The position numbers were made by a program, and so were the translations under genes. Shown one piece after another: positions 12,345 through 23,522 of a stretch of 64,000 nucleotides of DNA (position 1 is the first letter of the stretch; each line of letters opens with the position of its first letter). The DNA is from Alphaproteobacteria bacterium (lineage in GTDB: Bacteria; Pseudomonadota; Alphaproteobacteria; Elsterales; Elsteraceae), in NCBI GenBank assembly GCA_004292755.1, contig RDXE01000039.1, forward strand, positions 1 through 64,000, read 5' to 3'. The notes under the pieces are model-generated. The model was not told the origin of the DNA. It was given only the letters and a program-made list of their open reading frames with translations, and did not search any database.

Positions 12345-13758
12345 GCCCGGCAAGGGCTGCCACCGGCTGCGGCACCAACGGCCAACGCGGCGGGAGCGGA
12401 CCCGGCGGTCCGCCGCGGATCGCTGCCAATCCAGAACCCTGGATCAGCGCCAGGGCGGCGGCACAGGTGCGGCCTTGGCAGGTCCCCATGCCGGTGCGGG
12501 TGGCAAGCTTCGCAGCTGCGGCAGCGGGGGCGGCAGCAGCCCGCACCTGCCCGACAGTGACGCCTTCACACCGGCACAGCACAGCGTCGTCGGGAACCAA
12601 GCTCGGTACCCACTCCGGCAGCGCCGACCAAGCGCCCAGGGCCCGGCGAAAGCGATCGGCACGCTGGGCCAGCCGTTCCGCCTGCGCACGGCGCTGCGCC
12701 AGGGCTGTGGGAATGGGCTGACCTGCGCGCTCCAACCATCCGATGGCAGCCAACAGACCATCGGCCTGCGCCAGATCCGCCCCGCCGATGCCCCGCACCT
12801 CCCCAATCGCCAGCACCCCAGAAACCGAGGTGACACCAGTGGGGTCGGCCACGACGTGCCAGCCACCCAGCGCGCGGTCATGCGCGAGTGTGCACCCAGC
12901 CTGCTGCGCAGCCTCAATCGCCGGGCGCAAGCCAAACCCGCCGATCACGCGATCAACGCTCACGCGCTGGGTGCGCAGCGGGGCTCCAGTCTCATCCACA
13001 TGGATGACGTCTGCCACACCGTCGGCCCACCCAGTTGCGACACTGCGCGACCAAACCGGCACCCCAAGGCGCATCAACAGCCACCGCCAGTGTGCCGCTT
13101 GAGCCAGCAGGCTGGGGCGGGCCAGCAATCCCTGCATCAAGCGCGCAGTCGGCGTCGGCGCCGCATCGGCAATCCCCGCCACCACCACCCCAGCCATCGC
13201 CAATTGCACCGCCACCAAGTACAGCAGTGGCCCACAGCCACTGACCAGCACCCGGCCATCAGGCACCAAGCCGCTGGTCTTCAGCAGGGTCTGCGCCCCG
13301 CCAAGCGACACGGGGTCGTAGCCCGGTAGCGGCAAGGTCACCTCGATGGCACCGGGCGCCAGCACCAGACTGGTGGGGCGTAACGACACCACGGCCTCGC
13401 CAGCCCGCGCGACCAGCGCTGTGCCGTCGTCCATCCGCCCGAGATAACTCGCCCCAGTCCAGTGCTCAATGTGGGGCGAGGCAGCAAGCCATGCCCGCAA
13501 GCGCTGACCGCGCGGGTCCAGTCCCGGCAGATAGGGCAGCGGCTCCGCCCGTCGCGGTGCCACGCGCCCGCCAGCGGCAGGCGCCTCATCAATCAGCAGC
13601 GAGGGCACGCCCGCGTCTGCCAGCGCCAGCGCGCAGGTCGCACCCGCCGGACCCGCGCCAACGATCACCACCTCAGCGCGCGGCGGCGCACCAGGCTCCT
13701 CGGCCCGTGCGTGCGGCAGTGGCAATTGTGTTTCAGCCGAGGACCGGTCCAGACTCAC
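12289..13758 (-). CDS. FAD/NAD(P)-dependent oxidoreductase with BFD-like [2Fe-2S] domain (HcnB / opine oxidase A type)
   Basis: A roughly 489-residue flavoprotein. The FAD Rossmann motif VVIVGAGPAGATCA is near residue 32, a second nucleotide-binding region (RVLVSGCGPLLYLVAVQLAM) lies mid-protein, and GVLAIGEVRGIGGADLA is the typical FAD-contacting segment. The C-terminus carries a BFD-like iron-sulfur domain with cysteines in LCRCEGVTVGQ and GTCQGRTC. Such subunits pair with a DAO-type flavoprotein in HCN synthase, opine oxidase and D-hydroxyproline dehydrogenase. No ATG start is usable: ATGs further upstream lie inside the divergent gene. A GTG at 13758 is the best candidate but has no clear Shine-Dalgarno sequence, so the start is uncertain. 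Confidence 0.82.
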   Translation of the reverse strand: MSLDRSSAETQLPLPHARAEEPGAPPRAEVVIVGAGPAGATCALALADAGVPSLLIDEAPAAGGRVAPRRAEPLPYLPGLDPRGQRLRAWLAASPHIEHWTGASYLGRMDDGTALVARAGEAVVSLRPTSLVLAPGAIEVTLPLPGYDPVSLGGAQTLLKTSGLVPDGRVLVSGCGPLLYLVAVQLAMAGVVVAGIADAAPTPTARLMQGLLARPSLLAQAAHWRWLLMRLGVPVWSRSVATGWADGVADVIHVDETGAPLRTQRVSVDRVIGGFGLRPAIEAAQQAGCTLAHDRALGGWHVVADPTGVTSVSGVLAIGEVRGIGGADLAQADGLLAAIGWLERAGQPIPTALAQRRAQAERLAQRADRFRRALGAWSALPEWVPSLVPDDAVLCRCEGVTVGQVRAAAAPAAAAAKLATRTGMGTCQGRTCAAALALIQGSGLAAIRGGPPGPLPPRWPLVPQPVAALAGLSSSRAATADRGRSETPD

Positions 13759-13787
13759 CGCGGAACCGTTGCGCGAGCCCAAGGCCA

Positions 13788-14966
13788 ATGTCCAGACACG
13801 ACATCGACATCGCTGTGATTGGCGCCGGGGTGATTGGTGCGGGCTGCGCTTGGCAATTGGCCAAAGCCGGGCTGCGGGTCGCTCTGATCGACCGGGTGCA
13901 TCCAGCTGCCGGCAGTTCGGGCGCCTGCGATGGCTACCTGTCGGTGTCCACCAAAACACCGGGCGTGGCGATGACGCTCGCGGCTGCCAGTCGCGCGCTT
14001 TATCCCCAGTGGATCGCGGCGCTTGGTGACCTCGACGCCGAGACCAAAGGCGGCATGCTGGTTCTGGATCAACCAAGCCAGGTTGCCGCGATGGAGGCCC
14101 ATGCGGCGGCCCTGGCATCGGTCGGTGTTCACACAGAGCTGCTGGACATCGCTGCCGCCCGCCGACTGGAACCGGCCTTGAGCCCGGCGCTCACCGGTGC
14201 TGTGCTCTGCCCCGATGAGTCCCAGCTTAACCCTTACAAGCTGGCCTTGCGCTGTGCAGAGGCGGCAGCCGCGGCCGGAGCCCTTACCCTTTGGCCAGCC
14301 GAGCCGGTGGTGGAGGACCTCGGCGCCGATCACGTTCGCCTGCGTTTGCCTGCACAGGACCTCACCCTTCACGCACGTCAAGTGGTGCTGTGTGGTGGGG
14401 CCGCCAGCGCTGCCCTGGGGCAGACGTTCGGCCTCACCCTGCCGGTCATTCCGCGCCAGGGCGTGCTGGCCGTGACCCGCCGCCAGCACGCCCTGGCAAG
14501 CCGGTTTCTCGTTGCAGCGCGCTATCTGACCCACAAGCTCGATCCGGACCGTGCCAGCACATCCACCGACCCGCTGGAGCGCATCGGCCACGGCTTCACA
14601 CTGGAAAGCCTGCCGACGGGCCAGCACATCATCGGATCGTCGCGCCGCTTTGTCGGCTTCGACCGGAGCGCCCCTGCAGACGTGGTTGGCCTGATCCTCA
14701 GGGAGGCTGTGCGCTACGTGCCAGCCCTCGCAGACAGCGCCGTGCTGCGGGTGTTTGCAGGCTTGCGGCCATTTGTGCCGGACAAGCGCCCCTTCCTCGG
14801 ACGCTCGCGCACCAGCCCCGCGGTGATTGTCGCAACAGGGCATGAGGGGGACGGCATTACGCTCACGCCGATCACAGCTGCCTGCGTCACGGCGCTTGCG
14901 ACCGGGCAGACACCGCCCGTCGACATTACCACTCTCGACCCCGATCGCTTTGGCTGTCAGCCGTGA
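13788..14966 (+). CDS. DAO-family FAD-dependent oxidoreductase (HcnC / opine oxidase B type)
   Basis: A 392-residue flavoprotein of the glycine/D-amino-acid oxidase family. The N-terminal dinucleotide-binding fold reads IDIAVIGAGVIGAGCAWQLA, and the C-terminal FAD contact is VIVATGHEGDGITLTPITA. Family members oxidise amines, opines or D-amino acids such as D-hydroxyproline. It starts 29 bases from the proposed start of the divergent HcnB-like gene, so the two probably form one enzyme from a shared bidirectional promoter. The frame reads back to 13491, but that part lies within the opposite gene; MSRHDIDIAV fits the family. No third, small [2Fe-2S] subunit is visible nearby. Confidence 0.87.
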   Translation: MSRHDIDIAVIGAGVIGAGCAWQLAKAGLRVALIDRVHPAAGSSGACDGYLSVSTKTPGVAMTLAAASRALYPQWIAALGDLDAETKGGMLVLDQPSQVAAMEAHAAALASVGVHTELLDIAAARRLEPALSPALTGAVLCPDESQLNPYKLALRCAEAAAAAGALTLWPAEPVVEDLGADHVRLRLPAQDLTLHARQVVLCGGAASAALGQTFGLTLPVIPRQGVLAVTRRQHALASRFLVAARYLTHKLDPDRASTSTDPLERIGHGFTLESLPTGQHIIGSSRRFVGFDRSAPADVVGLILREAVRYVPALADSAVLRVFAGLRPFVPDKRPFLGRSRTSPAVIVATGHEGDGITLTPITAACVTALATGQTPPVDITTLDPDRFGCQP

Positions 14967-14984
14967 GTGGGATTGCGGCGGCGA

Positions 14985-15470
14985 TCAGGCGTAAGTGGTC
15001 TCGTCCGGGGCGACTTCCGGGCCCCACTCATCGACCAGTTCCACTTGGCGCTGGCGCAGATACTTGATGCGTTGCCGGTCCCGAATGCCTTGGTAGCGCA
15101 GCACCAAAGTCGGAATGGTGTAGTAGATCACCCACCCGATGGCTGCAGCCCCCAGGATGACCAGCCAGGGAAATGGGCTGGAGATGATCTCGACCAGACC
15201 AACCATCCCAGGCCGCGTGCCGTCTAGCATCTGAAACAGGAACGGGATCGCGCCAGACAGATTGAACCCGCCGACGGCATAGGCGGCGTACTTGCCTTCC
15301 CGCCGGTCAAGGAACCCCGCAACGATTGTCGGCAACATCGCGAGGAACAAGAACGCCAGGACGTGCCAGAAGAAGATCGCAACCAGTGGCGCGATTGCCC
15401 ACGCAAAGTACAAAGGCAGTCGGCTGCGCGGCTTCGGTGTGGGCGCCGGTTCAGGAACGGACTTCGCCAT
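14985..15470 (-). CDS. Small multi-span membrane protein of unknown function
   Basis: A 161-residue protein. After a short basic N-terminus (PTPKPRSR) there are hydrophobic segments at about 20-52 (LYFAWAIAPLVAIFF onward), 64-82 and 93-118, then a charged C-terminal tail rich in Arg and Glu. It matches no family I recognise. It begins 10 bases after the stop of the predicted pseudokinase gene and is almost certainly in the same transcript, which makes it a candidate membrane partner of that protein. Confidence 0.75.
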   Translation of the reverse strand: MAKSVPEPAPTPKPRSRLPLYFAWAIAPLVAIFFWHVLAFLFLAMLPTIVAGFLDRREGKYAAYAVGGFNLSGAIPFLFQMLDGTRPGMVGLVEIISSPFPWLVILGAAAIGWVIYYTIPTLVLRYQGIRDRQRIKYLRQRQVELVDEWGPEVAPDETTYA

Positions 15471-15480
15471 CAGTGCGCCC

Positions 15481-17817
15481 TCACGCGTAAAGAACCAGGA
15501 AGGTGATGGCCGTCACGATGCAGGTAAGCACCGCGCCGATCACCGCCGCGATCTGTTCGCCCATCATGCGGGCGTCGTCTTCGCGCTGATCGACATTGGT
15601 TTCCATGTCGGTCAACTCGGCTTCAATCTGGCGGTATTCCTCCCGCGCTTGATGGAATCCGTAATTGTCAGCCTGGCGCTCGGCCAGATCGTCAATCACC
15701 GCCAGGAGTTCAGACAGGATACCGCTTTCAGCCGCGGCCTGAACCTTCGCCTGCACCCGCTGGCGACGGGCGCGGTGATGATAATTGTCCAACACGGGTG
15801 CCAGCATTTGCGACATCCACGTCGCAAAGCCAGGCACTGGGCCGACCTCGTTGTTCTCCTGAATGTAGGAGAACAATCGCAGCAGGCCGATCGCCCGGAT
15901 GATGGTGTCGGGGCTCGCCAGCGGGCGCAGCAAATCCTCACTCCACCGGCGGGAGCGGGCCGCGATGAAGCCGATCAGATGCCGGTCGTACGGCATGTCT
16001 GGCCGGTCCGGCGTTTGCCCCAGCCGGTCCAGAGCTGGCATCACCTCGGAGATATCGACCACAAACTCTCGCTCAAACATCGGCGAGAGACAGCGCATCA
16101 TCGGATTGGTTTCGTACAAGCACCGCTCGAACCCAAGGCCAACAGCCTGTTGTTCGATGATGCCGGGCAGTTTTTCCATCGCCTGGGCGATGCGAACATC
16201 TTCAGAGTTCGGCTTGCCCTGGGCAGCCACCCAATGGATCGGCAGCCGGGCGGAAATGATTTCCGTCAAGGCCTGGCGCAGATCGGCGTCGTTCAACGCC
16301 ACAGTCATCGCGGGCCCGATGCCATCGACCGTCACGCCAATGCCGCGGTACCGGATCGGACCTTTGGGATCAAGGGTGATGCAGCCGCGGGCGACCAAAC
16401 GCTCTTCCGCACCGCGCCCTGTGACGTGGCTGGCCGTGGAATACACGGCGTTGATCAGCGCCTCGGCCTTCGGCTCCTCCATCATGGAGCGGCGCAACCA
16501 GCTATCCAGTTGGCGAGAGCGCACCAATGGCACCGCTTCCTGCCAATTGACCGCGAAGGCGTGGCCCAGCGTGCGAACGTTAAAGCATTCCTCCTCCCCC
16601 ACCAGGAAAGGCCGGGATGCGCGGGCGGGCAGCTTGCTTTGTCGCGGGCTTTGGCGGCGACCGGACAGCCACAAATCCAAGTCGGCGACGGTCCAGCGAT
16701 CGCGCTCGTCATCCATCAGCATGCCGCGCAATGGCTCGATCAGGCTGACCGGCACCCGCACTTGACCGGCGAGGGCCATGTAACTGCCGACTTCAATCTT
16801 CTCCCGGATCAACGCATCGTCAGACTTGTCGGGCACGGGATTGCGACCCAACAACAGGTACACAATGGTCGCGCCGAGAGAGTAGAGATCGTTCTGGATC
16901 GTGCCAGGACCGCGCCCAGCCGGGTGGGCCTGGGCGCTTTCAATGGTCTCAAACAGCGCTGGCTGGTCAAGGGCCGGCACGCCGGTCAAACACTCCCCCA
17001 GCACCATCGTGCGCCGGGTCATGTCGGTGTAGAACAAATTGGTTGGCCGGATCGCCCGGTGGGTGACACCGCGCGCCGCCAGATCCTTCAGGGTGTTCAA
17101 CAGCGGCCGCAGCAGGCCCTCAACAATCTCCTCATCCCCCATGCCGGATTGCGGGATGGTGAGGTCGTTGATCACCCGGTAGCCACCCGGACGCTCTAGC
17201 ACAATGGCGAAACGGCTACCACCGGCCGGCCAATCCACCACGCCCCAATCGAGCAGCTTCAGCATGCCGTTCATGGCGAAGCCGCGCAGCCCTTCCAGTG
17301 CGTCGTAGCGCGGCTGGGCCTCAGGCTCCAGGATCAGCGCCATCAGGGGGCGAGACCGGTCATTGCGGAACATGGCCTCGAAAGCCATGGCGTTGGCAGA
17401 CGCATACTCGGGCAGCGGCTCGCCCACATTGATGAAGTAGCGACCGCGCAGCGAGGTTACGAGCGCATCATCATCGATGCCCCCCATCGACGGCTCGTTC
17501 GAGACGCCACCTGCGGTTTGCGAGGTCGTCCCCGTCATTGCAGCAGCGGTTGCGGCCGCTGCTGCCGCAATCCCAGCTGCTGCCCCCGCAACGTCGTCAA
17601 TGTCCTGCTCGACCGAGGTCAGTTCCAACGGCGCGAGGGCTGGCATATCGGCCGCGCCCTCCGCTGCGAAGGTCACGGGCGCCATCACCGGAGCATCCAC
17701 CACCTCCGGCATCGCCATTCCCATCTTTTCCTGCTCCTGCCGGAGCAGTTCCATGGGATCGACCCATTCCGTGTCGAGATCGTCGGGAGGCGGTCCACCC
17801 GAGGTTACGTCAACCAT
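15481..17817 (-). CDS. Predicted pseudokinase with C-terminal membrane anchor
   Basis: A 778-residue protein. Residues 1-115 are acidic and Ala-rich without a clear fold. Residues about 120-390 follow the Ser/Thr kinase pattern, including LLDWGVV, a catalytic-loop equivalent VTHRAIRPTN (253-260 region) and a helix-F equivalent NDLYSLGATIVYLLLGRNP. The catalytic residues are missing: the HRD aspartate is Ala, DFG reads LGE (273-275), and the strand-3 lysine position reads ALIL. Residues 400-690 are an unrecognised helical region, followed by a coiled-coil-like stretch and a hydrophobic segment at 756-778 that would anchor the protein in the inner membrane. It is followed by a small membrane protein. 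It could act as a scaffold or ATP sensor; substrate phosphorylation looks unlikely. Confidence 0.78.
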   Translation of the reverse strand: MVDVTSGGPPPDDLDTEWVDPMELLRQEQEKMGMAMPEVVDAPVMAPVTFAAEGAADMPALAPLELTSVEQDIDDVAGAAAGIAAAAAATAAAMTGTTSQTAGGVSNEPSMGGIDDDALVTSLRGRYFINVGEPLPEYASANAMAFEAMFRNDRSRPLMALILEPEAQPRYDALEGLRGFAMNGMLKLLDWGVVDWPAGGSRFAIVLERPGGYRVINDLTIPQSGMGDEEIVEGLLRPLLNTLKDLAARGVTHRAIRPTNLFYTDMTRRTMVLGECLTGVPALDQPALFETIESAQAHPAGRGPGTIQNDLYSLGATIVYLLLGRNPVPDKSDDALIREKIEVGSYMALAGQVRVPVSLIEPLRGMLMDDERDRWTVADLDLWLSGRRQSPRQSKLPARASRPFLVGEEECFNVRTLGHAFAVNWQEAVPLVRSRQLDSWLRRSMMEEPKAEALINAVYSTASHVTGRGAEERLVARGCITLDPKGPIRYRGIGVTVDGIGPAMTVALNDADLRQALTEIISARLPIHWVAAQGKPNSEDVRIAQAMEKLPGIIEQQAVGLGFERCLYETNPMMRCLSPMFEREFVVDISEVMPALDRLGQTPDRPDMPYDRHLIGFIAARSRRWSEDLLRPLASPDTIIRAIGLLRLFSYIQENNEVGPVPGFATWMSQMLAPVLDNYHHRARRQRVQAKVQAAAESGILSELLAVIDDLAERQADNYGFHQAREEYRQIEAELTDMETNVDQREDDARMMGEQIAAVIGAVLTCIVTAITFLVLYA

Positions 17818-17966
17818 TCCGTCCCTTCCCGTCCCGCCCGGCCGCGGCGGAATGTTCCCGGCACATCAGACGCTGGAGCATGATCGCGCACCAACGCCTT
17901 ATCGCTGCAAGGAATCTACTGGTTAACGGCGGCGCTGGGAAGAGTCCGTACGCACCAATCTGCTGT

Positions 17967-19259
17967 TTACGCAGCGAACGGGTCTTGCATCAGAATGGTA
18001 TCGTCGCGTTCGGGGCTGGTGGACAGCAATGTGACCGGGCATCCGATCAATTCTTCCACGCGTTTGACATATTTGACCGCAGCCGCTGGCAGATCACCAA
18101 AGGAGCGCGCACCCGCAGTCGTTTCCTGCCATCCCGGCAAGGTTTCATAGACCGGTTCGCACGCCGCTTGATCACTGGCGGTCGATGGCAACCGGTCGAT
18201 CACCTCTCCCTTCAGGCGGTAGCCGGTACAGATTTTCAACTCCTCCATCCCATCCAGGATGTCGAGTTTGGTCAAAGCGATCCCGTCGATGCCACCCAGG
18301 CGGACAGCGCGGCGCACCAGCACCGCATCAAACCAGCCGCACCGGCGCTTGCGACCAGTCACCACGCCAAACTCCCGCCCGCGCTGGCCCAGGCCTTCGC
18401 CGATGGCATCGGTCAACTCGGTCGGGAACGGCCCCGATCCCACCCGCGTGGTGTAGGCTTTGCAGATGCCCAGGACAAAGCCGATCGCCTTCGGTCCCAA
18501 GCCAGACCCTGATGCGGCCCCGGCTGCGACAGTTGTGGACGAGGTCACGAACGGATAGGTGCCGTGGTCCACATCCAGCATGATGCCCTGAGCGCCCTCG
18601 AACAGGATGCGCCGACCAAGGCGACGCGCCTCCTCCAGACGCTCTGACACCGGCTCGGCGAAGGGGAGAATCTGCGGGGCCAGCGCCAGCAAGTCAGCCA
18701 TCAGGCTATCACGGTCCACTGGCTCCGCACCCAGGCCCTTGAACAGCGCATCATAGTGCAGCAACGCGCGGTTCAAACGCCGCTCCAAATCCTCAACATT
18801 GGCAAGGTCGCCAACGCGCACCGCCCGGCGGCCAACCTTATCCTCATAAGCGGGGCCGATGCCGCGCCCCGTCGTACCAATCTTCGCCGCCCCGGCCATA
18901 TCCTCGCGCAGACGGTCAATCCGGCTGTGATAGGGCAGAATCAGAGCGGCAGAATCAGCGATGCGCAGATTGTGCGGGCCAATCTCCACGCCTTGGCTGC
19001 GCAGCGTCGCGATCTCCTGCAGCAGGTGCCAGGGATCGACCACCACGCCATTACCAATGATCGACAGCTTGCCCGGTCGCACACAGCCCGAGGGCAGCAG
19101 CGACAGCTTGTAGGTCTGCCCGCCAATCACCAGCGTGTGGCCCGCGTTGTGGCCGCCTTGGAAGCGCACCACGATGTCCGCGCGCTCCGACAACCAATCA
19201 ACGATCTTGCCCTTGCCTTCGTCGCCCCACTGGGCGCCAATCACGGCGACATTGGTCAT
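17967..19259 (-). CDS. purA: Adenylosuccinate synthetase
   Basis: A 430-residue enzyme that couples IMP and aspartate using GTP, the first step from IMP to AMP. The P-loop-like [15 protein letters not shown] opens the protein, with [42 protein letters not shown] and the GTP-binding LTKLD motif following. Its ATG overlaps the hisZ stop in an ATGA at 19256-19259, so translation is coupled to hisZ. A longer frame back to 19322 would overlap hisZ and lacks family similarity. Confidence 0.97.
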
Positions 19260-20458
19260 GGCGTAGTGTCCTTCTGATCGGGCAGCGCGACGATACCGTC
19301 CGCCACCATCACATGACTGCAACCGAGGCGGTGAGCCTCATCTTCCGGATTGGCGGTGCGATCCAGTGCGGCGAGTGTGATCCACCCGTCTTCCCGCAAG
19401 CTCTCGGCCTGGGCGTGGGGCGTACCATAGGGCAGCAACAAGCGGCGCGGCGCCGGGGCGGCAGGCAGGGCCGCCATGATCGGGTCCATGAACAGGCTGA
19501 AGCCGGTTGCTGGCTCCAGATGGCCTTCGGGTCCCGCCAGATACCGCCCGCCACGCCCCAATTCCCCGGTGACGCCACGCGCAAACAGGGTAAACCCGAT
19601 GCCGCTGTAATACTCAAAGCCGCGGTGCTCAACGGGGTCCACGGTCAACTGCACCTCTGGCACCGCCTCTCGCAACGCGCCAATCGCCTGGGACAGGCGC
19701 GCGCGCACTGCCTGTTGGGAGGCCGGCAGGGCAAGCGAGGTCAGGATCAACTCGGCTGCTTCCGCTGGTCCTGTGGCGGCCAGCAGGCCCAGCAGAGCGT
19801 CGGTCGCGGCCCCGGCGTGGCGGCGCACAGCATCAGCATCTTTCCGATCAAGCGCCGCCCGGGTCAGCAGCAGGTCCCGCCCGCGCACCCCAGCCTCCGC
19901 ACAGATCGCACCGACCAGCGTAGGCGCATTGAAATCAATCGAGAGCCCTGGAACACCAAGGCCTGCGAGGCTGGTGGCGGCGAGGCGCATGACCTCAACA
20001 TCGGCTGCGACACCAGGCGCGCCAATCAGCTCCACCCCCACTTGGACGAACTGGCGCTCGGGCCGCAGTTGCGAGCCCTTCATGCGCAGCACATCGCCCG
20101 CATAGGCCAGACGCAGTGGGCGGGGCGTGCCCGCCAGACGCGTGGTGGCGATGCGGGCCACCTGCACGGTCATATCCGCGCGCAGACCCATCATGCGCTG
20201 GGACAGGGGATCAAGCAGGCGGAAGGTTTGTTGACCGATGCCGCCCGTGTCAGAGCCCAGCAGGCTTTCTTCAAACTCCACCAGCGGCGGGTCAACGCGC
20301 TCATAGCCGTGGCGGCCAAAGGCCGCCATCAAAAAGCTGGTGGCAGCAGCCTGACGATCCGCATGGGGCGGCAGGCCATCGCGCAGACCGGCTGGCAGCA
20401 AGGCACGGCGCGCCTGTTCGGGATCGGCGGGCGGCAACGGCACGGAAGGCGGCTCCAT
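19256..20458 (-). CDS. hisZ: ATP phosphoribosyltransferase regulatory subunit
   Basis: A 400-residue paralogue of class II histidyl-tRNA synthetase that lacks the tRNA functions and activates short-form HisG in the first step of histidine synthesis. Typical elements are [16 protein letters not shown], the motif-2-like [26 protein letters not shown] and the C-terminal [10 protein letters not shown]. hisG is not in the window. The overlap with purA ties a histidine gene to a purine gene; the two pathways share AICAR, which is a by-product of histidine synthesis. Confidence 0.93.
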
Positions 20459-20651
20459 GAGAAAAGGCCGGACGGCGACAGACCGCCTCGACGCCGGTCC
20501 GCCCGCTCAATAGCAAGGCCATCCCCATCGCCGCAATCGCCGCGACAAGGGGGCATGCAGCGAAGCCCCTCTGCATGGGAGAGTTGCAGCGACGGGCTTT
20601 GCGTTCGCCGCCTCAGACACCACTATCGGATAAGACCCTCATGGTCGGTGC

Positions 20652-20657
20652 GAGGAG
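20652..20657 (+). promoter_or_regulatory. Ribosome-binding site that sets the cysE start
   Basis: GAGGAG lies four bases before the ATG at 20662. It favours this start over in-frame ATGs at 20575 and 20641, neither of which has a comparable site. Confidence 0.7.
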
Positions 20658-20661
20658 ACTG

Positions 20662-21297
20662 ATGGAGCTTGCCGAACTGGTGCGCAGCATCCGCCTGCGC
20701 GACCCCGCCCGCCCCACCTGGGGTGAAGTGGTGTTCGCCTATCCTGGCGTTCACGCTGTTCTGTGGCACCGCCTTGCGCACGGGTTGTGGCGCCGCGGCT
20801 GGCGGACTTTCGGTCGCATCGCGAGCCACCTTGGCCGCATGCTGACCGGCATCGAAATCCACCCCGGCGCCAGGATTGGCCGCCGCCTGTTCATCGACCA
20901 CGGCATGGGTGTGGTGATTGGCGAGACCGCGGTGATCGGCGATGATGTGACGATCTACCACGGCGTGACCTTGGGTGGTTTGTCCTCCAAACCCGGCAAG
21001 CGCCATCCCGATGTGGATGATGGCGTGGTGATCGGTGCTGGCGCCCAAGTGCTGGGCCCAATCCGCCTCGCAACGGGCGCCAAGGTGGGTGCCAACTCCG
21101 TGGTGCTGCAAGATGTCGCCCCCGGCGTAACCGTGATCGGCGCCCCCGCCCAACCCCTCGGCACCGCCCCCGGCCAGCAACACTGCGGCTACGGCTTCGG
21201 CGACGCCTGCGTCGACCCAATCTCCGAACGCCTCAGCGCCCTGGAAGCCGACCTCGCCAGCCTGCGCGAGCAGGTGAAGGGACGGGAGCGGGTGTGA
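20662..21297 (+). CDS. cysE: Serine O-acetyltransferase
   Basis: A 211-residue trimeric left-handed beta-helix enzyme that makes O-acetylserine from serine and acetyl-CoA. Hexapeptide repeats run from about residue 65, with the catalytic segment RRLFIDHGMGVVIGETAVIG, then DDVTIYHGVTLGG and VIGAGAQVLGPI. It is of the short form without the long N-terminal helical domain of the enterobacterial enzyme. It is divergent from hisZ, with a 203-base gap in which I see no further gene. Confidence 0.93.
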   Translation: MELAELVRSIRLRDPARPTWGEVVFAYPGVHAVLWHRLAHGLWRRGWRTFGRIASHLGRMLTGIEIHPGARIGRRLFIDHGMGVVIGETAVIGDDVTIYHGVTLGGLSSKPGKRHPDVDDGVVIGAGAQVLGPIRLATGAKVGANSVVLQDVAPGVTVIGAPAQPLGTAPGQQHCGYGFGDACVDPISERLSALEADLASLREQVKGRERV

Positions 21298-21471
21298 GGG
21301 GGTGACGGAGATTGATTGGTGCTGCGGAGGGTTCGCTCTAGATCATGGGGTGAATGAAGCTCATTTTTAGCGCCAATCTGGCTACCCCAATCCAATTCAG
21401 TCGCTCAGCGTGTCGGACACACAGGCCTTACTGCCAAGTGCTTAGTCCGCGACTTCTGGGTTCTACACCTC

Positions 21472-22413
21472 TTACCCATCTGCAGGAGACCGAGGCTCGG
21501 CCAAGGCCACGACACCACTGTGGCGATGACTGGCCCGCACAGCTTCCAGTTGGGCACTCGTCGTCACTGGCACTGCGACGAACTCCTCTCGCGCAAGGGC
21601 GGGAATGCCCAGCCTGAGGGCAAGCTCGCGATCGGCGACGCCGCTGAGCAACACAATACCCTGCGGCTCCAACCGGTCCCGCACGCCACCATTGCTGCGC
21701 AGTCGCTTCATGAAATCTTTTTGGCGGGCAACCGATTCAACCGTCCCTCGCGCAATTGGGCGTCCCAGGAACGCCTGAAACAGGGCATACAGACGCTCGG
21801 TTCCGCTGGTGGGCTGCATAATCGAGCGGCGTATGTGAGTTGGCACAGCCTCCCAAAAATTTGCTGGATAGGGATGATTCTTTAAAATCCAATGGATGTT
21901 CTTCCGCCCAATAGCCGATACTGACACTTTACCGTCTTTGTTCGCACCACCTGTCAGGTAAGCTGGATGGCAGATCAACAATCCAACACTACACACAGCA
22001 GAAGGCTCATTTTCAGAAATCAGAATACAAGGCTTTCTGATCGCTTCTGAGGGGATCATCCAGTTACCAGTCACTGTGTTTTTCACGTCGATGTCTAGCC
22101 CAGCAACATCGAGGTCTAACAGGCCTTTGGGAACGCCTAGGAAATCTCGGATCAATATCTCAACTTTGGTCCCGAGGTAGGTCTTCTCAGTCTTCTCAAG
22201 TTGAGCCAGAACGAAACGACCCGTCCGTGGCATGTCAATTACTTCATCGATGGCAAGGCGTAGGCGCCGGGGAATTTCCTGTGCAAACACAGCCCAACCA
22301 CCTGACCGCTCTTCAATGGCTGCAGCCACCCGATCAATGATCGCACGATCCGGATGATCAACTGCCAACGGCTCAGCCGGAACCGAGCCAACGGAGAACA
22401 AATCAGCGTCCAT
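21472..22413 (-). CDS. NaeI-like type II restriction endonuclease
   Basis: A 313-residue protein, close to the 317 of NaeI. The nuclease core is recognisable: KVEILIRDF followed by LLDLDVAGLDIDVKN and GNWMIPSEAI. Candidate catalytic residues are Glu85, Asp100, Asp109 and Lys111; the spacing of the last three equals that of Asp86, Asp95 and Lys97 in NaeI. The C-terminal part (residues 160-310) would be the second DNA-binding domain of the family. Its start overlaps the end of the methyltransferase gene by 11 bases; a TTG at 22422 is an alternative. A+T-rich stretches (21860-22130) contrast with the neighbours and point to transfer. By family analogy the target may be GCCGGC, but that is inference. 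Confidence 0.82.
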   Translation of the reverse strand: MDADLFSVGSVPAEPLAVDHPDRAIIDRVAAAIEERSGGWAVFAQEIPRRLRLAIDEVIDMPRTGRFVLAQLEKTEKTYLGTKVEILIRDFLGVPKGLLDLDVAGLDIDVKNTVTGNWMIPSEAIRKPCILISENEPSAVCSVGLLICHPAYLTGGANKDGKVSVSAIGRKNIHWILKNHPYPANFWEAVPTHIRRSIMQPTSGTERLYALFQAFLGRPIARGTVESVARQKDFMKRLRSNGGVRDRLEPQGIVLLSGVADRELALRLGIPALAREEFVAVPVTTSAQLEAVRASHRHSGVVALAEPRSPADG

Positions 22414-23416
22414 GCCCCACAACAGTCACCAGCGCCCGGTTGGGCCGCGCAGACCCAGCCGCCGGACGCCCCTTACCACGGGCTGCTGCCTCAAGTGCCG
22501 CGCGCACTTGACGCCCAACCGCGCAAGCGACGGGCGGTGGAAAAGCATTGCCCACTTGCCGATAGGCCGCAGTTTTGCGCCCAGAGAACTGCCAATCGTC
22601 GGGGAACCCCTGCAACCGCGCCGCCATCCGCACGGTTAAGCGCGGCATCCCATCGAACCCAGGCTCCGGTGCTTCGAGGGCCAGAGACTTGCCGTTCACG
22701 CCAAGCACCGCCCAAGCCGCACGCGCCCGCGTTGGCCCAAGGTCGGGTCCACCATGTTTCTTGGAGCCGCCAACCAATGTGGGCGCAATGTCGTCAGCCT
22801 GGTCGGCCCACGCAGCCGCTCCCTCCCACCCATTGGCCGCCATTAGATCCAGCAGGCACGCCCCCACAGTTGGGGGCGAGGAGGGATGCGGCGTCGGCCA
22901 GCGAAAATGCTCTGCCGCCTCAGCCGCGAGAGCCACGAACACAACCCGCGGACGAAGCTGCGGCACGCCATAGTCAGCAGCGTTCAACAAGCGCCAATCA
23001 CACCAAAAGCCAAGGCGCTTGAGACCCTGGCGAATGTTCTCGCGCACCTGTTCAAAGCGGGGATCGAGAATGCCTTTGACATTTTCAATAATCGCGCCGC
23101 GCGGGCGGACCTCATCCATGATGCGCAGCCCGTGCCCAAACAAATCACGGTCATCGGCAGGCCCAAGTTGCTTGCCCGCAATGCTATAGGGCGGACACGG
23201 CAGCCCACCGGTCACCAAATCCACGCCCCGCCACTCGGTGGCTGAAAACACCGTCAGATCTGCTTCCCTCACAGTCCAATGCGGCCGATTGAGCCGGAGC
23301 GTCGTACAGGCTGGCGCGTCGTTATCCACCAACGCCACATGATCAATGCCCGCCAACTCCAGTCCAAGCGCTTGGCCACCTGCACCAGCACACAACTCAA
23401 TCGATTGGATTGGCAT
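22403..23416 (-). CDS. DNA (cytosine-5) methyltransferase of the restriction-modification pair
   Basis: A 337-residue Dcm-type enzyme. Motif I is IELCAGAGGQALGLELAG, motif IV GGLPCPPYS with catalytic Cys74, motif VI ENVKGI, motif VIII LRPRVVF, and motif X AYRQVGNAFPPPVA. A variable target-recognition region lies between motifs VIII and IX. GGAGG five bases before the ATG at 23416 supports this start over a TTG three bases upstream. Modification comes first in the operon and the endonuclease follows with an overlap, an order that lets protection precede cutting. Confidence 0.93.
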   Translation of the reverse strand: MPIQSIELCAGAGGQALGLELAGIDHVALVDNDAPACTTLRLNRPHWTVREADLTVFSATEWRGVDLVTGGLPCPPYSIAGKQLGPADDRDLFGHGLRIMDEVRPRGAIIENVKGILDPRFEQVRENIRQGLKRLGFWCDWRLLNAADYGVPQLRPRVVFVALAAEAAEHFRWPTPHPSSPPTVGACLLDLMAANGWEGAAAWADQADDIAPTLVGGSKKHGGPDLGPTRARAAWAVLGVNGKSLALEAPEPGFDGMPRLTVRMAARLQGFPDDWQFSGRKTAAYRQVGNAFPPPVACAVGRQVRAALEAAARGKGRPAAGSARPNRALVTVVGHGR

Positions 23417-23522
23417 CAACGCCTCCCGTGTCGTGCGGAGACTGTGTCGCCGAAAAAACGGAACGTCAATCGAACATTACCTGTCGCCGCACGGGCCACC
23501 CCGAACAAACCCAGCCCATCCC

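Follow-up and report, generated by a model that had tools for sequence, protein, structure and literature searches.

The window analyzed here is a 64,000-nt stretch of a contig (RDXE01000039.1) from an alphaproteobacterium of the family Elsteraceae. Its minus strand carries a gene for a kinase-like protein (PK) and, downstream of it, a gene for a small membrane protein (MP), arranged as follows.

14985-15470, minus strand: partner gene MP, 161 residues (ORF; alignment A2)
15481-17817, minus strand: pseudokinase gene PK, 778 residues (ORF)
15490-15546, minus strand: predicted transmembrane anchor at the C-terminus of PK, spanning residues 758-776 (19 residues with a hydropathy of 2.63)
15568-16608, minus strand: novel C-terminal domain of PK, residues ~404-750 (alignments A1 and A4)
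16648-17451, minus strand: pseudokinase domain of PK, residues ~123-390 (profile A1 against the PDB and homologue census)
PK residues 1-117: low-complexity N-terminus, an extension peculiar to this genus
17967-19322, minus strand: purA, adenylosuccinate synthetase, upstream of PK (Pfam PF00709, E = 3e-176)
19256-20458, minus strand: hisZ, ATP phosphoribosyltransferase regulatory subunit (Pfam PF13393, E = 3e-82)

Both the PK and MP ORFs were re-found on the minus strand with the coordinates and the 10-base spacing of the original prediction. The usual gene order is hisZ-purA-PK-MP-rpoH, with rpoH frequently present and convergent, and it is annotated as such in Azospirillum thermophilum. Among 66 counted loci, some of which are on short contigs, purA is located upstream at 40 and a convergent rpoH nearby at 29. 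A search of positions 13000-22000 against Rfam returned zero families, and promoter and terminator scans gave signal at chance level only. Beyond hisZ, the minus strand of the window also encodes a type II restriction-modification pair (21472-23419), consisting of a C-5 cytosine methylase (22403-23419) and a NaeI-family endonuclease (21472-22422), the genes of which overlap by 20 nt.

Taken alone, PK of the window matches the Pfam Pkinase family below the cut-off (E = 1.6e-4), and 35 of 50 PK homologues match it individually, the best at 8.8e-12. Profile A1, an alignment of these 50 homologues, matched 720 distinct PDB sequences at E-values up to 0.01; the best 60 of the 720 are protein kinases, with MAPK-activated kinase 2 (MK2) at the top (E = 1.8e-14). 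On the strength of these significant profile matches to the kinase domain, PK is predicted to adopt a Hanks-type (ePK-like) kinase fold. The kinase fold originally proposed for the 778-residue protein is supported by homology to solved kinases, with the boundaries of the domain corrected from residues 120-390 to ~123-390. The N-terminal extension of ~110-117 residues is common only to the window protein and its congener, with other homologues having 0 to 87 residues in this region. AlphaFold2 models of PK, computed from two sequences only (the window protein and L021), reached pLDDT of 34 and 39, and a Foldseek search with the second low-confidence model yielded chance matches (best E = 0.33); the models are uninformative because the alignment was shallow. 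The nearest intact relative encountered is L094, a Ser/Thr kinase from another class of Pseudomonadota (genome G312), which matches over the kinase domain with E = 2.4e-31 and has intact HRDIKPGN and ADFG motifs. Past the kinase domain, L094 and PK display weak collinear similarity (9.3 bits, compared to at most 1.9 bits in 500 shuffles), which suggests that PK descended from an active kinase.

The original prediction held that all three catalytic landmarks are missing from PK, and this is correct for two of them. In the profile alignment, HRAIRPTN of PK falls on HRDVKPEN of MK2 and LGEC falls on LTDF. The HRD position of the window protein is His253-Arg254-Ala255, as had been read. In a census of 68 non-redundant homologues (denominators of 66 to 68, depending on the position), position 253 is His in 59/66, followed by Arg or Gly and then by Ala, Ser, Gly or Asn, and the search for relatives with an intact HRD found no Asp at position 255 (0/66), which is occupied by Ala, Ser, Gly, Asn, Arg and others. 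Loss of the strand-3 Lys was likewise confirmed: strand 3 consists of Ala160, mostly Leu, and then Val, Ile or Leu (reading ALV or ALI), the Lys position being Ile162 in the window protein, Lys in a single homologue (1/66) and Val, Ile or Leu in most. By contrast, the reading of DFG as LGE was shifted by one residue: the DFG-Asp position corresponds to Glu275, so that this landmark is acidic rather than lost (Glu in 35 and Asp in 24 of the 68 homologues; acidic in 59/67, with Gln, Pro or Ala in eight). The DFG Gly is gone from the window protein and kept in only one homologue of the census, and the place of the Gly-rich loop is occupied by a PLPxxDSPxAxAYxA motif in the PK family. The catalytic-loop Asn260 is kept in 64/66, Arg257 is found in 52/66 and Arg170 in 48 of the 50 aligned homologues; the window protein also has the alpha-F Asp310 and the subdomain XI Arg374.

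Pseudokinases are defined by the loss of at least one of the strand-3 Lys, HRD Asp and DFG Asp (PMC12599244). Judged by its motifs, the PK family is predicted to consist of pseudokinases, with two of the three residues lost throughout and the third being Glu or Asp, and lacks the HRD Asp and strand-3 Lys expected of a catalytically competent kinase. Given that the catalytic Asp and Lys are gone throughout a large family under selection, phosphotransfer by PK is unlikely. The retention of Asn260 and of an acidic residue at position 275 indicates, however, that PK may still bind a metal or a nucleotide. Together with the conserved arginines, these residues make a nucleotide- or metal-sensing switch the main rival to a scaffold reading of PK: a pocket formed by Asn260, Glu/Asp275, Arg170 and Arg257 would bind a ligand and alter the contact of PK with MP or a client, with no catalysis involved. 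The DLHK pseudokinases, modelled as binding ATP via three arginines (PMC12599244), provide a precedent. Nevertheless, the strand-3 Lys, the Gly-rich loop and the DFG Gly are all absent, eight homologues lack an acidic residue at position 275, and the placement of Arg170 in the pocket is putative, so that we consider such a switch possible, if unlikely.

The original prediction described the region following the kinase domain as unrecognized, and profile searches against Pfam, NCBIfam and the PDB indeed gave no described family for it. No Pfam family matched the C-terminal domain in any of the 50 homologues, and in a sample of 249 genomes the domain turned up in no lineage other than the Alphaproteobacteria. 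Its profile matched designed armadillo repeats and weaker others in the PDB over short stretches only; designed armadillo proteins were dismissed as relatives, with ~25 positions covered and no single stretch significant alone. Within the family, the domain is marked by invariant or nearly invariant GxGxERxxY (residues 560-568), CxS (576-578) and DRH (611-613) motifs, Gly699 and Asp717, with R565, Y568 and D717 being invariant among the 50 homologues. These 3 residues and the family-wide conservation of polar pocket residues could be accounted for if PK were an atypical enzyme, its kinase-like fold performing another ATP-dependent transfer in the manner of SelO (AMPylation) or SidJ (glutamylation). 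However, both SelO (WHLK) and SidJ (VAVK) retain the strand-3 Lys (PMC12599244), whereas position 162 is hydrophobic in nearly all PK homologues, which renders this explanation improbable.

The membrane tail noted originally corresponds to one hydrophobic helix, residues 758-776, at the extreme C-terminus. A hydrophobic stretch is present in 48 of the 50 homologues, and the last one stops 0-9 residues from the C-terminus in all 48; PK is accordingly predicted to be a tail-anchored protein, the remainder of which is presumably cytoplasmic. In MP, hydropathy analysis delineated several spans (~20-52, 65-81 and 101-124), in agreement with its description as a 161-residue multi-span protein, and no family in Pfam or NCBIfam was matched. 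The N-terminus and the tail past the last hydrophobic stretch are both basic, suggesting an N-in, C-in topology with a hairpin at residues 20-52. Conserved positions in alignment A2 include Pro47, Asn70 and the nearly invariant C-terminal Trp149-Gly150.

The PK family is present in roughly one third of the sampled alphaproteobacterial genomes: PK and MP were each found in 100 of 289, and both in 99 (the PK count omits three ordinary kinases with weak E-values). In the sole genome with PK but no MP, the PK gene is cut by the contig end (L061), and the sole genome with an MP match but no PK has a weak match (E = 2.8e-5). Full-length PK matches among 299 genomes of Pseudomonadota were confined to Alphaproteobacteria, with Azospirillum among the carriers of the pair. 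MP lies immediately downstream of PK at 61 of the 66 counted loci, mostly with a gap of -8 to 30 nt; of the five exceptions, the intact outgroup kinase L094 is one, two have MP within a miscalled ORF of greater length, and two sit at the end of a contig or close to it. In genomes G275 and G205, PK and MP are on different contigs and both are retained. Conservation of the gene pair in relatives, which had been proposed as a check, thus extends across the class, beyond the order to which the window genome belongs, and on this distribution the PK-MP module appears to be ancient in Alphaproteobacteria. A scan of genome contigs with the single PK protein returned one locus. At L095 and L096, the entire unit is duplicated in tandem (PK-MP-PK-MP), with the L095 copy located between purA and rpoH.

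Tree distances of PK and MP are correlated (r = 0.73) more strongly than those of either protein with purA; the partial correlation given purA is 0.64, a value reached in 0 of 2000 permutations, which were not phylogeny-aware. The co-occurrence of PK and MP may partly stem from shared descent and linkage. Compared to the congener, dN/dS is about 0.13 for PK, 0.15 for MP and 0.09 for the C-terminal domain, consistent with purifying selection on both genes that is strongest in the C-terminal domain.

The conservation of the hisZ-purA-PK-MP-rpoH order over many families, with purA at 40/66 and rpoH at 29/66 loci, would also be expected if the pair were a membrane-associated accessory of its housekeeping neighbors that regulates purine or histidine biosynthesis or the heat-shock sigma factor. 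Yet PK and MP remain neighbors at loci without an adjacent purA or rpoH, and at 22 loci, some on short contigs and including that of Azospirillum ramasamyi, the pair occurs with no purA detected upstream; furthermore, the linkage may reflect vertical gene order alone. We give this explanation little credence. A role in anti-phage defence is unlikely because the pair sits among housekeeping genes and the family is widespread, with an apparently vertical mode of inheritance. The PADLOC matches (PD-T4-6, MkoA and mad6) are weak and restricted to the kinase region, as are the best NCBIfam matches, to the MAD6 defence kinase (24 bits against a cut-off of 460) and to the class IV lanthionine synthetase LanL (37.4 bits against a cut-off of 650), all of which were rejected. 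No relatives were found among viral contigs queried with the single PK protein, and a phage collection contained no PK match.

Pseudokinases can also act on active kinases, as exemplified by STRAD, which activates LKB1 as an allosteric partner. PK, with its kinase fold, might likewise serve a catalytically active Hanks-type kinase of its host cell as an allosteric partner or decoy, and a further Hanks kinase is encoded in the PK-bearing genomes G005, G008, G009, G010, G022 and G023. However, in the majority of the PK-bearing genomes checked, no further Pkinase match exceeds the Pfam cut-off, and this role is disfavored by the closed single-contig genome G036, which carries PK and no other Pkinase match at all, and by the window genome, where the only candidate, a kinase-like protein linked to PP2C, scores below that cut-off. 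We regard it as very improbable. The protein in question is encoded at L126 (G000:C4, 536-3384), where a PP2C-type phosphatase-like ORF (536-1465, delineated by eye) is directly followed by a gene whose 640-residue product is kinase-like and contains a helix-hairpin-helix domain.

Collectively, we favor the reading, with a probability of about one half, that PK is a non-catalytic, tail-anchored pseudokinase scaffold that works with the small membrane partner MP. PK and MP would constitute one module. PK would be an inner-membrane protein with a cytoplasmic pseudokinase domain followed by the conserved C-terminal domain and the tail anchor, and MP, a small polytopic protein of the same membrane, would bind PK, probably via its membrane part and basic C-terminal tail. 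PK would transfer no phosphate; its degenerate pocket would have become a protein-binding scaffold, and the surface of the C-terminal domain (GxGxERxxY...CxS...DRH) would be presented to a client or to MP. The nearly obligate pairing and the correlated divergence of the two proteins favor a physical PK-MP complex in the inner membrane, although the complex, the scaffold role and the membrane topology are all inferred. The original prediction of a membrane-bound signalling or scaffold module built on a dead kinase is thus retained as the best reading, with signalling as a possible role only and with an acidic residue at the metal-binding position. Asn260 and the acidic DFG-Asp position, kept in most homologues, would be unneeded by a scaffold and argue against a pure one. 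The one-module reading is weakened by extra MP genes. Such lone copies occur in G022 (L150, L151 and L152) and G146 (L153), both of which also hold the PK-MP pair. A bolder interpretation, which we consider doubtful, is that PK and MP form a membrane machine of ancient origin in Alphaproteobacteria, in which a kinase fold devoid of the strand-3 Lys and catalytic Asp has acquired a new site, centered on Asn260, Glu/Asp275 and the arginines, for ligand sensing or for catalysis other than phosphotransfer, and is obligately coupled to MP. Overall, PK and MP together are probably a structural or sensing module, not an enzyme.

Known bacterial pseudokinases are scarce and have received little study, and the PK family adds to them an unnamed C-terminal domain and a dedicated, unnamed membrane partner. 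No description of the PK-MP pair was found in open-access papers. RefSeq designates PK a 'serine/threonine protein kinase' in NZ_CP029356.1 and NZ_CP029830.1 (L092 and L093), despite the loss of catalytic residues in the family. L094 differs from PK in its intact catalytic motifs, its different C-terminus and the absence of MP in the surrounding 6.5 kb. A 2025 review lists seven bacterial pseudokinase families, ActPs1-3, GLW, CP1, DYD and DLHK (O'Boyle et al. 2025, PMC12599244), among which GLW and DLHK are wholly pseudokinase and mainly proteobacterial. GLW is the nearest known family by description, being proteobacterial, with the strand-3 Lys replaced by a hydrophobic residue and HRD lost. 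However, GLW replaces HRD in that family, whereas PK has His253 in 59/66 and no GLW in the sequences inspected; strand 3 is poly-leucine (LLLL/W) in GLW, and ALV or ALI in PK. Unlike GLW pseudokinases, PK has a large conserved C-terminal domain between the kinase domain and the membrane, and it is paired with MP, whereas the section of the review on GLW names no membrane partner gene (PMC12599244). DLHK pseudokinases keep the HRD Asp and have no transmembrane region (PMC12599244), in contrast to PK, which has lost the Asp and has a tail anchor. With GLW and DLHK compared by description, PK fits no published motif definition, and it may have a name in the 42-family classification of bacterial Ser/Thr kinases. 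Two further systems provide functional analogies only. EssB/YukC of type VIIb secretion is a membrane-anchored pseudokinase, degraded in all motifs, that acts by scaffolding and recruitment (PMC12599244); it belongs to a Firmicute secretion system, and no secretion genes were seen beside PK-MP. EcpK of Myxococcus xanthus is a pseudokinase that functions in polysaccharide export and has the fold of a bacterial tyrosine kinase rather than a Hanks-type fold; its proposed role, scaffolding of a single cognate protein of the inner membrane (EpsV; PMC12004946), resembles what we envisage for PK and MP.
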